From an uncultured Alphaproteobacteria bacterium (GTDB taxonomy: Bacteria; Pseudomonadota; Alphaproteobacteria; RF32; CAG-239), in contig CALXPK010000031.1 of the NCBI GenBank assembly GCA_944390265.1, forward strand, positions 1 to 55,086: DNA of 55,086 bases. Direction: 5' to 3'. The notes beneath the pieces are model-generated. The model was not told where the DNA came from. It saw only the letters and a program-made list of their open reading frames with translations, and did not search any database. Made by a program: the position numbers and the translations under genes. Positions 1-13,919 of this stretch are shown here, in pieces; the stretch's first letter is position 1, and each line of letters opens with the position of its first letter.

Positions 1-20
1 GTCAATGAAATGTCACTCAT
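1..20 (-). CDS. Flagellin, 5' end only (runs off the left edge)
   Basis: The first 20 bases, read on the minus strand, are a start codon followed by codons for MSDISL and the first two bases of a Thr codon. They are identical to the start of the complete flagellin gene at 11807-13645, and the upstream region that follows is also duplicated (see 1-290). An AGGTG ribosome-binding site sits 6 bases before the ATG, as in the full copy. I infer a second flagellin paralogue whose body lies outside the window; nothing can be said about its central domain. Confidence 0.85.
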
Positions 21-215
21 TTTGCACCTCGCATGGGTTTAATAAATTGAATTTGCGTGAAAAATTAAAGGATATGACATAATAATTATAGGATATGACT
101 TGATAATAAGATTCGGATACGGCAAAACCTTCCGCAAATTTTGCGAAAAGGCTCAAATTGATATGTTTTCTTACTGAAGATAACATTCTGCCATATCCTC
201 AAAAAATTTTTTAGT
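21..215 (-). promoter_or_regulatory. Flagellin leader, copy 1, with four spaced repeats
   Basis: This region lies between a terminator and the partial flagellin start. Going right on the plus strand it holds GGATATGAC at 70-78 and 91-99, GGATACGGC at 115-123, and the inverted arm GCCATATCC at 190-198. The same layout, with the same 21 and 24 base spacings, occurs at 13695-13827 before the second flagellin gene, but with different core bases. Between the last two arms is a small hairpin (arms near 128-148). The flagellin promoter must be in here or just above it, but I cannot name its -35 and -10. The pairing arms suggest a structured mRNA leader or inverted protein sites. Confidence 0.6.
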
Positions 216-254
216 TCTAAAAAACCGTGCAGACTGTACATCTCCGCACGGTTT
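216..254 (-). terminator. Rho-independent terminator after the Nudix gene
   Basis: The arms AAACCGTGC (222-230) and GCACGGTTT (246-254) form a 9-bp stem. On the minus strand the stem is followed by a T run (complement of 216-226). It stands about 30 bases past the Nudix stop codon. The same terminator, with an 11-bp stem, follows dnaQ at 13843-13878, and both copies belong to the duplicated flagellin cassette. Confidence 0.75.
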
Positions 255-284
255 AAAATATAGCAAATGCAAGTAAAAATTTGG

Positions 285-773
285 TTAACGGAACAAATTT
301 TGTACCGCCAACCAATGTGTATAATTGATTTTGACTTTTTGGGAGAGAATATCTTCAACTTTCACCCATTCGGCTTTGCCGTTTTCGGGTGTGCGCCACA
401 GTTCTTGGTCAGTATCAAAACCATAAGATGCGGCATCATAAACAATAAACATTTGCTCATAAATACAATAAACCCCGTTGGGCTTGGCATCATCGGCAAA
501 ATAGTTTATGGTTTGCGAAAACTCTTTAGCGCCGTAATCCAGCATAAAATCCAAACCGGTTTCTTCATAAAGTTTGCGATACAAACAATCTCTGAAATCT
601 TCTCTGCGGCTGACCGAGCCCCCCGGAAATTCCGGCAAATCCACCTGCGGCGGATAAGTCAGCAAAACCTTATCATCTTTGAGCAAAATGGCAAAATAGC
701 CTTTTTGGTGCATGGGAATAACATCCTCACCATATTTTTGTTTGCCGTATCTGTCAAAATAGATATTATTCAT
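285..773 (-). CDS. Nudix hydrolase with altered Nudix box
   Basis: A 162-residue Nudix-fold protein, expected to hydrolyse a nucleoside diphosphate linked to another group; the substrate is not evident. The Nudix box begins at about residue 51 (GGSVSRREDF) and ends with RKLYEETGL. The consensus GX5EX7REUXEEXGU is met except that the Glu of the RE pair is Lys. In MutT the matching Glu takes part in catalysis, so activity may be reduced or changed. The ATG at 773 overlaps the end of gmk by 8 bases, so the two are probably translated together. A terminator follows at 216-254. Confidence 0.8.
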   Translation of the reverse strand: MNNIYFDRYGKQKYGEDVIPMHQKGYFAILLKDDKVLLTYPPQVDLPEFPGGSVSRREDFRDCLYRKLYEETGLDFMLDYGAKEFSQTINYFADDAKPNGVYCIYEQMFIVYDAASYGFDTDQELWRTPENGKAEWVKVEDILSQKVKINYTHWLAVQNLFR

Positions 774-11806: not shown

Positions 11807-13645
11807 TTAGAATAAACGGAGGACGGCCTGTGCAGATTGTGAGGCTAAAGACAATGAGTTTATGGCCAGTTGCTGGCGGGTCTGGAGCGAGAGCATATTG
11901 GCCGATTCCTCGTTCATATCGGCCAGGGTGAGTTTATCGGCACCTTCTTCCAAAACATTAATCAGGTTTTCGGTGAACTCATCACGGGTGGTGATAATGG
12001 AATAATAGTTGCCGAGTTGGGTGGAAGCCGAGCGGAGCTTGTCTTGTGCGTTCAGCACCTGGTCAAGAGAAGTTTGCACCGCTTTGGATGAAGTCCAGTC
12101 CGCCGCGAGCAGGCCGATGCTTTCTGAAGTAACATCCACACCTTTGACCAATAAGTTAGCAGATTTATCCTCATTGAAATTAACTTTGAGATTATCTTCT
12201 TTTAAGAGATTGATACCTTTATAAATGCTATCGTTAATCAGCATATCATATTGCGACAAAGCCTCATTAAATTGCTTTTGATAGGCTTGGCGAGCAGCTT
12301 GTTCTTCCTCTGTACCATACTTTATTTTCGCCTCTTGCTCGGTAATGATATCCTTTGCCGTCTTCCAAGCAGAAGTTTGCGCCACTTTCAGTTTTGTTTC
12401 AACATTATCTGCCGTTATAGTGTTTGACGTCGAAGTTGAAGTATTTTCATCTCTATAATCTTTTTTCACTTCATACCACTTGGCTTGCCCATCTTTTTCA
12501 AATGCAATTTTAGCCCCTTGAGCAATTTCAAGAATATTAGCACCATTTCCTTGATGAAATAAATTATCAATAGAATTACCCATAGTTTCAAAATTTATTT
12601 GAGCTGAAGATAGTATGTTTACTTTATTATTACTTCTATCACTAGTTAACAAAATTCCTCTACTGTTATTTCCTATTGTTTTGATATTTAAATTTCCATC
12701 AATATTCATTGATGATTGATTATAAGCACATATACCATGTCCTGTCGTTAATATATTTATTAAGGAATCCTTTTTTATATTTATAATAGCTTCATTTACT
12801 CCCCAAAATCCATGTCCTAGCTGTCCAAACACTTCAATTTGAAGTTTTCCATCTATATTAACTGTTGCGCCATCCCAAGCAGAAATAGCTGCTCTTCCCT
12901 GGTTCATTGTATTTTCATCAGAAAATTTTGCCGAAATATATAAATTTTGTATTTCAGTAATCGTATCTTTACCATGTACTTCAATAACTAATGTACTTTC
13001 AGTTGTTATATTATTATCATAATTCAAACTCAAGTCACTGACCAAGCAGCCGGTCTTACGAATATCTATTAAAGAATGCCAAGCAACGCTATCAGTGGCG
13101 GAGATAGAAGAAAAACCTTCACCGTCGGCAAAGTTGCCAAAGTAGTTGACACCGACGAGCTTTTGGTTTTCTCGTAAGAAAATGCCATTAGACGTAGAGA
13201 TATCCCCGAGGTCGATTTGGCCATCAACGCAAATCGTTTCTTTGCCGGAAGTGACCGCCGCGCGGAGCTCATCAGCGGTGGAAACAACCGCACCATTCTC
13301 CCCGACCAGCTTTTCAAAATAGCTTTTTTCCGGCACTACGCTACCGCTACTCACCTGTTCGGCAATCGCTTTCATCTGTTTAATCAGCTCTTCGACAGTT
13401 TCTATACCCTCGGTTGCGGCCTTGATGGTCTGTATGCCTTGGCTCATCGCGTCAAGCAAAGCGCTCAAGTCATCGGCACGATTGGTCAGCGAGCTTGCGG
13501 TATAATACGAGCTCGGATTATCAATCGCCGAGTTGACTTTTAAGCCGGTGGAAAGCCTCAGTTGGGTTTGGTCTTGCAGTTTGGAAATTTGTTGCAAACT
13601 CAGCAAATTGCTCCGCATTGAGGCGGTCAATGAAATGTCACTCAT
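11807..13645 (-). CDS. Flagellin with beta-helix-like central insert
   Basis: The filament subunit of the flagellum, 612 residues. The N-terminal D0/D1 part (about 1-104) has LRLSTGLKVNSAIDNPSSYY, and the C-terminal part (about 405-612) ends in TRQQLAINSLSLASQSAQAV, both typical flagellin. The centre (about 105-400) instead shows repeated short strands of some 22-24 residues with turns such as GHGFWGVNEA, GHGICAYNQS and NNSRGILL, as in parallel beta-helix surface domains. DNA for this part (about 12440-13050) is clearly more AT-rich than its flanks. GCGAGGTG precedes the ATG. The start and leader are duplicated at 1-290. Confidence 0.93.
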   Translation of the reverse strand: MSDISLTASMRSNLLSLQQISKLQDQTQLRLSTGLKVNSAIDNPSSYYTASSLTNRADDLSALLDAMSQGIQTIKAATEGIETVEELIKQMKAIAEQVSSGSVVPEKSYFEKLVGENGAVVSTADELRAAVTSGKETICVDGQIDLGDISTSNGIFLRENQKLVGVNYFGNFADGEGFSSISATDSVAWHSLIDIRKTGCLVSDLSLNYDNNITTESTLVIEVHGKDTITEIQNLYISAKFSDENTMNQGRAAISAWDGATVNIDGKLQIEVFGQLGHGFWGVNEAIINIKKDSLINILTTGHGICAYNQSSMNIDGNLNIKTIGNNSRGILLTSDRSNNKVNILSSAQINFETMGNSIDNLFHQGNGANILEIAQGAKIAFEKDGQAKWYEVKKDYRDENTSTSTSNTITADNVETKLKVAQTSAWKTAKDIITEQEAKIKYGTEEEQAARQAYQKQFNEALSQYDMLINDSIYKGINLLKEDNLKVNFNEDKSANLLVKGVDVTSESIGLLAADWTSSKAVQTSLDQVLNAQDKLRSASTQLGNYYSIITTRDEFTENLINVLEEGADKLTLADMNEESANMLSLQTRQQLAINSLSLASQSAQAVLRLF

Positions 13646-13842
13646 TTTGCACCTCGCACGGGTTTAGCATATTGAATTTGCGTGAAAAATTAAAGGACAA
13701 AACATAATAATTGTAGGATACAACTTGATAATAAGATTTAGATACAACAAAACCTTTCACCACAGGGGTAAAAAGTGCAGAAATCGTCAGAAATTGTCTT
13801 CTTGGTTTCAACATTCTTGTTGTATCCTAAAAAATTTTTAGT
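13646..13842 (-). promoter_or_regulatory. Flagellin leader, copy 2, with four spaced repeats
   Basis: On the plus strand the repeats are GGACAAAAC (13695-13703), GGATACAAC (13716-13724), AGATACAAC (13740-13748) and the inverted arm GTTGTATCC (13819-13827). The first three keep the 21- and 24-base spacing of copy 1. The arm at 13819 can pair with the one at 13740 (11 bp) or 13716 in the transcript. A small hairpin between the arms (13756-13779) matches the position of the copy-1 hairpin with different bases. A 16-base perfect palindrome, TTTTTAGTACTAAAAA, stands at 13835-13850, where the terminator T run meets the leader. The promoter itself is not identified. Confidence 0.6.
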
Positions 13843-13878
13843 ACTAAAAACCGTGCGGCTGATCATTCCGCACGGTTT
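13843..13878 (-). terminator. Rho-independent terminator after dnaQ
   Basis: AAACCGTGCGG (13848-13858) and CCGCACGGTTT (13868-13878) form an 11-bp stem followed on the minus strand by TTTTT. It ends the coaE-dnaQ transcript and separates it from the flagellin leader. Confidence 0.8.
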
Positions 13879-13919
13879 AAAATATAGCAAATGCAAGTAA
13901 AAATTTGGTTAATATCAAA

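Follow-up and report, generated by a model that had tools for sequence, protein, structure and literature searches.

Two flagellin leaders and their copies in the genome

The window (the whole stretch of 55,086 nucleotides analyzed here) is contig C31 of a fragmented 1.47-Mb genome. It carries two flagellin genes on the minus strand, each with a leader at its 5′ side, referred to here as copy 1 and copy 2 (Table 1). A preliminary description of this DNA had reported three direct repeats and one inverted partner in both leaders, with identical spacing of the repeats. Both observations hold, with repeat steps of 24 and 21 bases in both copies, although repeat 3 of copy 2 is degenerate and carries one mismatch with the inverted partner, the upstream arm.

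The leader is not a two-copy oddity, since searches of the same genome with either leader recovered at least 13 dispersed loci with distinct upstream flanks, the matches lying at flagellin 5′ ends or at contig ends. The genome has nine Flagellin_N matches. Integron attC sites and mobile-element ends were considered and set aside; the repeated unit comprises leader and flagellin, with unique 5′ flanks and variable 3′ flanks. None of the Rfam covariance models matched the leader at its gathering score, and the best permissive matches fell far below the cut-offs; the leader is an RNA leader family absent from Rfam. The core flagellin of the genome, which adjoins flbT, has a different, short leader without a leader ORF. 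There is one flbT gene in this genome, and among 14 control genomes flbT was found only in Caulobacter, on which basis the genome is probably that of an alphaproteobacterium. Two core flagellins (L046 in G000 and L054 in G004) have TGTGGATAA, a DnaA-box-like 9-mer, upstream, and a downstream TTATCC that could pair with TGTGGATAA.

Table 1. Features of the two flagellin leaders in the window
Feature	Position	Strand	Basis
Flagellin gene, 612 aa (copy 2)	11807..13645	-	Pfam Flagellin_N + Flagellin_C
Promoter-like element, copy 2: TTAACC (CtrA-like half site) + extended -10 TGCTATATT	13881..13912	-	sequence, pattern count
Promoter-like element, copy 1: TTAACC ... TGCTATATT	257..288	-	sequence, pattern count
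Hairpin H1, copy 2: loop AATGATCAG with 6-nt palindrome TGATCA, then T-run	13849..13877	-	fold
Hairpin H1, copy 1: loop GATGTACAG with palindrome TGTACA	222..254	-	fold
H2, copy 2: perfect 16-nt palindrome TTTTTAGTACTAAAAA	13835..13850	-	palindrome count
H2, copy 1: palindrome AAAAAATTTTTT	201..212	-	palindrome count
SD of leader ORF, copy 2: AGGA	13825..13828	-	sequence
SD of leader ORF, copy 1: GAGGA	196-200	-	sequence
P1 5′ strand, copy 2: GGATACAACAAGAA (upstream arm GGATACAAC, 13827-13819)	13814..13827	-	fold + pairing counts
P1 5′ strand, copy 1: GGATATGGCAGAA (upstream arm GGATATGGC, 198-190)	186..198	-	fold + pairing counts
Leader ORF, copy 2: MLKPRRQFLTISALFTPVVKGFVVSKSYYQVVSYNYYVLSFNFSRKFNMLNPCEVQNE, then stop, which overlaps the flagellin start (ATGAGTGA)	13638..13814	-	reading frame
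Leader ORF, copy 1: MLSSVRKHINLSLFAKFAEGFAVSESYYQVISYNYYVISFNFSRKFNLLNPCEVQNE, then stop	13..186	-	reading frame
P3 hairpin, copy 2: CTTTTTACC-CCTGT-GGTGAAAGG	13753..13775	-	fold + pairing counts
P3 hairpin, copy 1	128..151	-	fold + pairing counts
P1 3′ strand, copy 2: TTTTGTTGTATCT (includes repeat 1 GTTGTATCT, 13748-13740)	13740..13752	-	pairing counts
P1 3′ strand, copy 1: TTTTGCCGTATCC (repeat 1 GCCGTATCC, 123-115)	115..127	-	fold + repeat comparison
Repeat 2, copy 2: GTTGTATCC, read 13724-13716, alternative partner of SD arm	13716..13724	-	pairing counts
Repeat 2, copy 1: GTCATATCC, read 99-91	91..99	-	repeat comparison
Repeat 3, copy 2: GTTTTGTCC, read 13703-13695, degenerate, one mismatch with arm	13695..13703	-	repeat comparison
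Repeat 3, copy 1: GTCATATCC, read 78-70	70..78	-	repeat comparison
Predicted hairpin locking flagellin ribosome site, copy 2: GAGGTG with CGCCTC of early flagellin codons, AUG inside	13620..13655	-	predicted fold

The upstream arm is the ribosome site of a hidden ORF

The upstream arm proved to be the Shine-Dalgarno (SD) region of a short ORF of 41 to 58 codons in this genome; the GGATA of the arm lies within GAGGATA or AGGATA, a ribosome site 8 to 10 bases before an ATG. Because the steps of 24 and 21 bases are multiples of three, the repeats fall in the frame of this leader ORF, where the three direct repeats are codons for a peptide repeat, V-V/I-S-x-N-Y-Y. The ORF is open in all 10 distinct leaders of the genome, an outcome expected by chance in 1.6 to 3.4% of cases for each of the five leaders tested by dinucleotide shuffling. 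Substitutions between the window copies are far more conservative in the leader-ORF frame than in column-shuffled controls (0/4000), and the other frames resemble the null in the same test. A six-base deletion in C53 and C7 preserves the frame, and in relatives ATG, GTG and TTG interchange at the start position, with ACG in one copy. Outside its N terminus the peptide is only modestly conserved, and a Pfam search with it returned no family.

The stop codon of the leader ORF lies on the flagellin start, as ATGAGTGA in a long form and ATGA in a short form. This overlap is found in 37 of 41 leaders, the exceptions being three copies with a poly-C tract (see below) and one early stop; in G103:C20b, the ORF stops at codon 7. 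Since ATGA and ATGAGTGA starts give out-of-frame stops anyway, the overlap is weaker evidence than it appears. A conserved open ORF with its own SD and start codon is nevertheless what lies upstream of the flagellins, and its stop overlaps the start of the target gene, the arrangement expected of a translationally coupled leader ORF.

RNA pairing between the arm and the repeats

In the minimum-energy fold of both window copies, the SD arm plus AGAA pairs over approximately 13 bp with TTTTGnnGTATCC. This helix, P1, encloses a variable hairpin, P2, and the small hairpin P3, which differs between the copies on both sides, as first noticed. In a MAFFT alignment of nine leaders from this genome, 99% of the P1/P3 cells are paired. 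A larger alignment of 49 distinct sequences from ten genomes, which was fitted to the structure and is thus biased towards pairing but gave the same answer as the nine-sequence alignment, has 99.2% of the P1 and P3 cells paired, with 10 of the 22 pairs changed on both sides. When the structure is slid by 1 to 3 columns, only 42 to 55% of the cells are paired, and the cells changed on both sides, 90 as observed, number 24.9 in shuffles and 0 to 17 in the slid structures. These counts support an RNA pairing kept by compensatory change, in keeping with the original suggestion that the arms stay able to pair as they diverge. The suggestion that one upstream arm has mutually exclusive partners is likewise borne out: the arm pairs with repeat 1 in seven of the nine distinct leaders of this genome (the other two have one A-C mismatch) and with repeat 2 in every cell.

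Since the repeats lie in coding sequence, we asked whether coding alone gives the arm pairing. When the leader-ORF codons were redrawn synonymously, only 1 to 7 of 300 versions equaled the observed pairing, whereas the total folding energy of the ORF is ordinary against the synonymous controls in most copies. In three relatives (G103, G107, and G111), the bases of the P1 3′ strand are unchanged although the ORF reads that strand in another frame, so it is the RNA, not the peptide, that is conserved there. Full-leader folds of the relatives pair the arm with the repeat 1 region with a median probability of 0.97; in G180 and one G117 copy, P1 with repeat 1 does not dominate. An alternative local hairpin, CAAC/GTTG, which would free the SD, pairs in 94.7% of cells, with covariation not above that of shuffles.

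A predicted second lock on the flagellin ribosome site

The flagellin ribosome site is itself predicted to be held in a hairpin, in this case with early flagellin codons (Table 1). In copy 2, the probability that the flagellin SD is unpaired is 0.001, and the fold is stronger than that of all 200 of 200 synonymous versions of the flagellin codons. The corresponding probability is 0.001 to 0.002 in all eight copies tested from this genome, and six of these copies have a lock stronger than at least 92% of the synonymous versions, for four of them at least 98%. At the core flagellin, which has no leader ORF, the value is 0.42, i.e., the site is open. Masking is predicted in relatives too, with a median unpaired probability of 0.07 in full-leader folds; in G125, G111, and G180, it is not much stronger than in synonymous controls. 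Judged from these predicted folds, a ribosome finishing the leader ORF would open the hairpin that masks the flagellin SD.

Promoter-like element, hairpin H1, and palindrome H2

A TTAAC/T motif followed after 16 to 23 bases by an extended -10 is present in 37 of 51 leaders, against 1.1 expected, and stands 79 to 89 bases before the leader-ORF SD; it also occurs in C73, whose sequence there differs from that of the other copies. As this promoter-like element is upstream of all the repeats, the arms are probably in the mRNA. A TATAAT hexamer after repeat 2 was considered as a promoter within the repeats and rejected, since it decays to TGCAAT in C65.

A hairpin, H1, and a palindrome, H2, lie between this element and the leader-ORF SD. 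The loop of H1 has about nine bases, often with a central 6-nt palindrome (TGATCA, TGTACA, GTGCAC, TAGCTA, TAATTA, or AAGCTT) that is commonly flanked by purines, a layout as in retroviral dimerization loops. H2 is a perfect palindrome of 10 to 16 nt just before the leader-ORF SD in 41 of 51 leaders, against 4.1 expected. Leaders with H2 include those of G103, G117, G125, and G131 (loci L260 to L298), and its sequence is different in nearly every G103 copy. It is conceivable, if doubtful, that the leader is also a self-recognition device, in which mRNAs with the same palindrome would dimerize to shut or open each other, with on/off phase variation through a poly-C tract of the leader ORF added in some relatives.

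Distribution in the family

When 151 other genomes of the family were searched by DNA identity, the leader had only short matches at the level of chance, and pattern and protein scans of the genome contigs for it gave nothing. A profile of the leader peptide had a weak match in genus g12 (G125), directly before flagellins. A covariance model of P1 to P3 found 45 copies (E < 0.001) in nine further genomes, namely, G103, G107, G111, G115, G117, G125, G129, and G131 (g12) and G180 (g16), and a second covariance model added G005. The leader therefore occurs in ten other genomes of the family, in three genera, which rules out that it is unique to this species, and it stands before flagellins wherever the context is readable, with few exceptions. 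In G005 and in G002, of the same genus, a P3-like hairpin accompanies a leader ORF that overlaps the flagellin start, with P1 weak or absent. In a sample of 385 genomes across the class, the second covariance model found no further convincing member. Weak matches in G013 and G123 were discarded; these are terminator-like hairpins, and no adjacent flagellin is visible.

Most g12 leaders lack repeats 2 and 3. In G180, of another genus, the arm, AAAGGCAC, is unrelated in sequence, and its exact complement, GTGCCTTT, lies in the tail of the ORF, with two occurrences spaced by 21 nt in one copy and a single one in the other; pairing of this arm and complement is reached by synonymous controls in 4 to 10% of draws. 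Given this analogue built from a different sequence, repeats 2 and 3 are probably real spare partners of the SD arm.

A C10 tract follows repeat 1 in two leaders of G115 (L280 and L281) and in one of G129 (L297). A change of one C (+1 in G115, -1 in G129) would convert an ORF ending 22 to 27 bases short of the flagellin start into one overlapping it. All three of these copies are nonoverlapping as assembled, a count that homopolymer consensus errors may affect. Tracts of 9 to 10 C's in or after the leader ORF are also present in L271 (G131) and L296 (G103). The length of the G115 and G129 tracts is thus a candidate phase-variation switch acting on the leader ORF.

Several further observations concern the flagellins of these genomes. 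In two G117 loci (L276 in G117:C24 and L279 in G117:C42), the flagellin after the leader lacks most of the N-terminal region or has lost its start; these genes are apparently decayed or recombined copies. Large dispersed repertoires of flagellins of 600 to 700 aa with variable central regions are found in G000, G006, G027, G046, G103, G112, and G122; the flagellin-rich genomes measure 1.4 to 1.7 Mb, and the number of flagellin N-terminal matches reaches 32 in G006. In G027 (g9; L135, L136, and L138), an unrelated ORF of 30 codons overlaps the start of dispersed flagellins whose ribosome site is masked. In G006 (L124, L126, L127, L130, and L131), repeats with GTCAAGCCGGAGAATGACAAG or similar sequences lie between the promoter and the start of several dispersed flagellins.

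A probable translational relay and its alternatives

From the ORF, the conserved pairing, the stop overlap and the predicted flagellin hairpin, the reading that we consider likely is that the mRNA leader acts in cis through two successive locks. P1 would gate a translational relay, for which repeats 2 and 3 would be alternative locks; reading the hidden ORF would then, most likely, open the flagellin message. Direct initiation on the flagellin would be poor, its SD and start codon being folded with early flagellin codons. A ribosome on the leader ORF, ending at the flagellin start codon, would open this hairpin and, on terminating, hand over or admit a new ribosome (translational coupling). 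The leader ORF in turn would have its SD and start region held in the 13-bp P1 by its own codons (repeat 1). Its SD would be free until repeat 1 is transcribed, and every translating ribosome would break P1; on idle full-length RNA, P1 would form and the relay would be shut. In this genome, repeats 2 and 3 may serve as spare partners, catching the SD when a ribosome covers repeat 1. The trigger might be growth state, temperature, or an RNA-binding protein such as FlbT, the last a candidate because in Caulobacter it acts through the 5′ UTR to repress flagellin mRNA, as reviewed (PMC3930126).

The alternating RNA switch first proposed is thus retained as regards RNA pairing and exclusive partners; it had missed the ORF, the identity of the arm as an SD and the lock on the flagellin. 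The further proposal that the switch selects which flagellin is made finds no support, as the same device is present in all copies. The other original proposal, that the arms are paralogue-specific DNA operators, we regard as very improbable, together with the variant in which they were homogenized by replication template switching and have no RNA function. A set of direct repeats with 21- and 24-bp spacing and an inverted partner may represent protein sites, and template switching during replication, which can make arms match, could account for their agreement. However, inverted operators would have the same site sequence in paralogues, and here the arms differ and stay pairable, often by wobble. 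The pairing is kept through G-U wobbles and in three genera, and its position coincides with a ribosome site and lies inside an ORF, with the promoter-like element upstream.

A transcription attenuator, in which H1 with its T-run or P3 with TTTT is an intrinsic terminator and leader-ORF ribosomes or alternative pairing set the read-through, seems unlikely. H1 has a GC-rich stem with a trailing T5-6 and, in most copies, sits between the promoter-like element and the ORF, and P3 of copy 2 scores as terminator-like, but the T-run after P3 has just four bases, and these pair within P1. H1 could simply end transcription from the upstream gene, although two loci whose nearest long upstream ORF runs the opposite way, C53 and C60, retain it. 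In copy 2, no terminator-like site was found between the end of the leader ORF and the flagellin, where a leader-peptide attenuator has its terminator, H1 lying before the ORF and P3 inside it. Attenuation also leaves the lock on the flagellin ribosome site unexplained. We give still less credence to P1 to P3 being primarily the binding site of a trans-acting RNA-binding protein such as FlbT, with the ORF secondary. FlbT binds flagellin 5′ UTRs in Caulobacter, according to the same review (PMC3930126), and in the present genome the single flbT adjoins the core flagellin; flbT is, however, also found in genomes where the leader was not. Such binding would be compatible with the translational relay, as its trigger.

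Among described systems, the mgtQ-mgtB intergenic region of Salmonella (PMC8092293) similarly combines a small ORF with alternative stem-loops that overlap it; one of the stem-loops occludes the ribosome site of the gene that follows. mgtQ works via ribosome-destabilizing acidic residues in low Mg2+ (PMC8092293), whereas in the flagellin leader the SD of the ORF is held by its own codons, the stop overlaps the start of the target, which belongs to a dispersed flagellin family. Control by FlbT resembles the leader in being posttranscriptional, through the 5′ UTR of flagellin mRNA and in an alphaproteobacterium, but it is exerted by a trans-acting protein, and the accessible text of the review makes no mention of an overlapping leader ORF (PMC3930126). 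In the metA SAM-II riboswitch of Sinorhizobium (PMC9373788), a sequestered SD in a structured leader likewise controls translation that starts further downstream, but there is a ligand-binding aptamer and the start is an in-frame AUG rather than a separate overlapping ORF. A literature search on flagellin leader ORFs and translational coupling, with subscription journals mostly outside its scope, found nothing alike.

Conclusions

The leader unites a hidden ORF, a helix that would lock the ribosome site of that ORF with its own codons, and a predicted second lock on the flagellin. On the translational-relay reading, this leader family would gate the dispersed flagellins of a family of alphaproteobacterium-like bacteria with small genomes. 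It offers a testable explanation of how most of the dozen or more similar flagellins of one bacterium could be kept silent or poised. Some relatives suggest phase variation on the leader ORF and not on the flagellin gene itself. Self-recognition through H1 and H2, if true, would provide paralogue-specific feedback across the flagellin repertoire.
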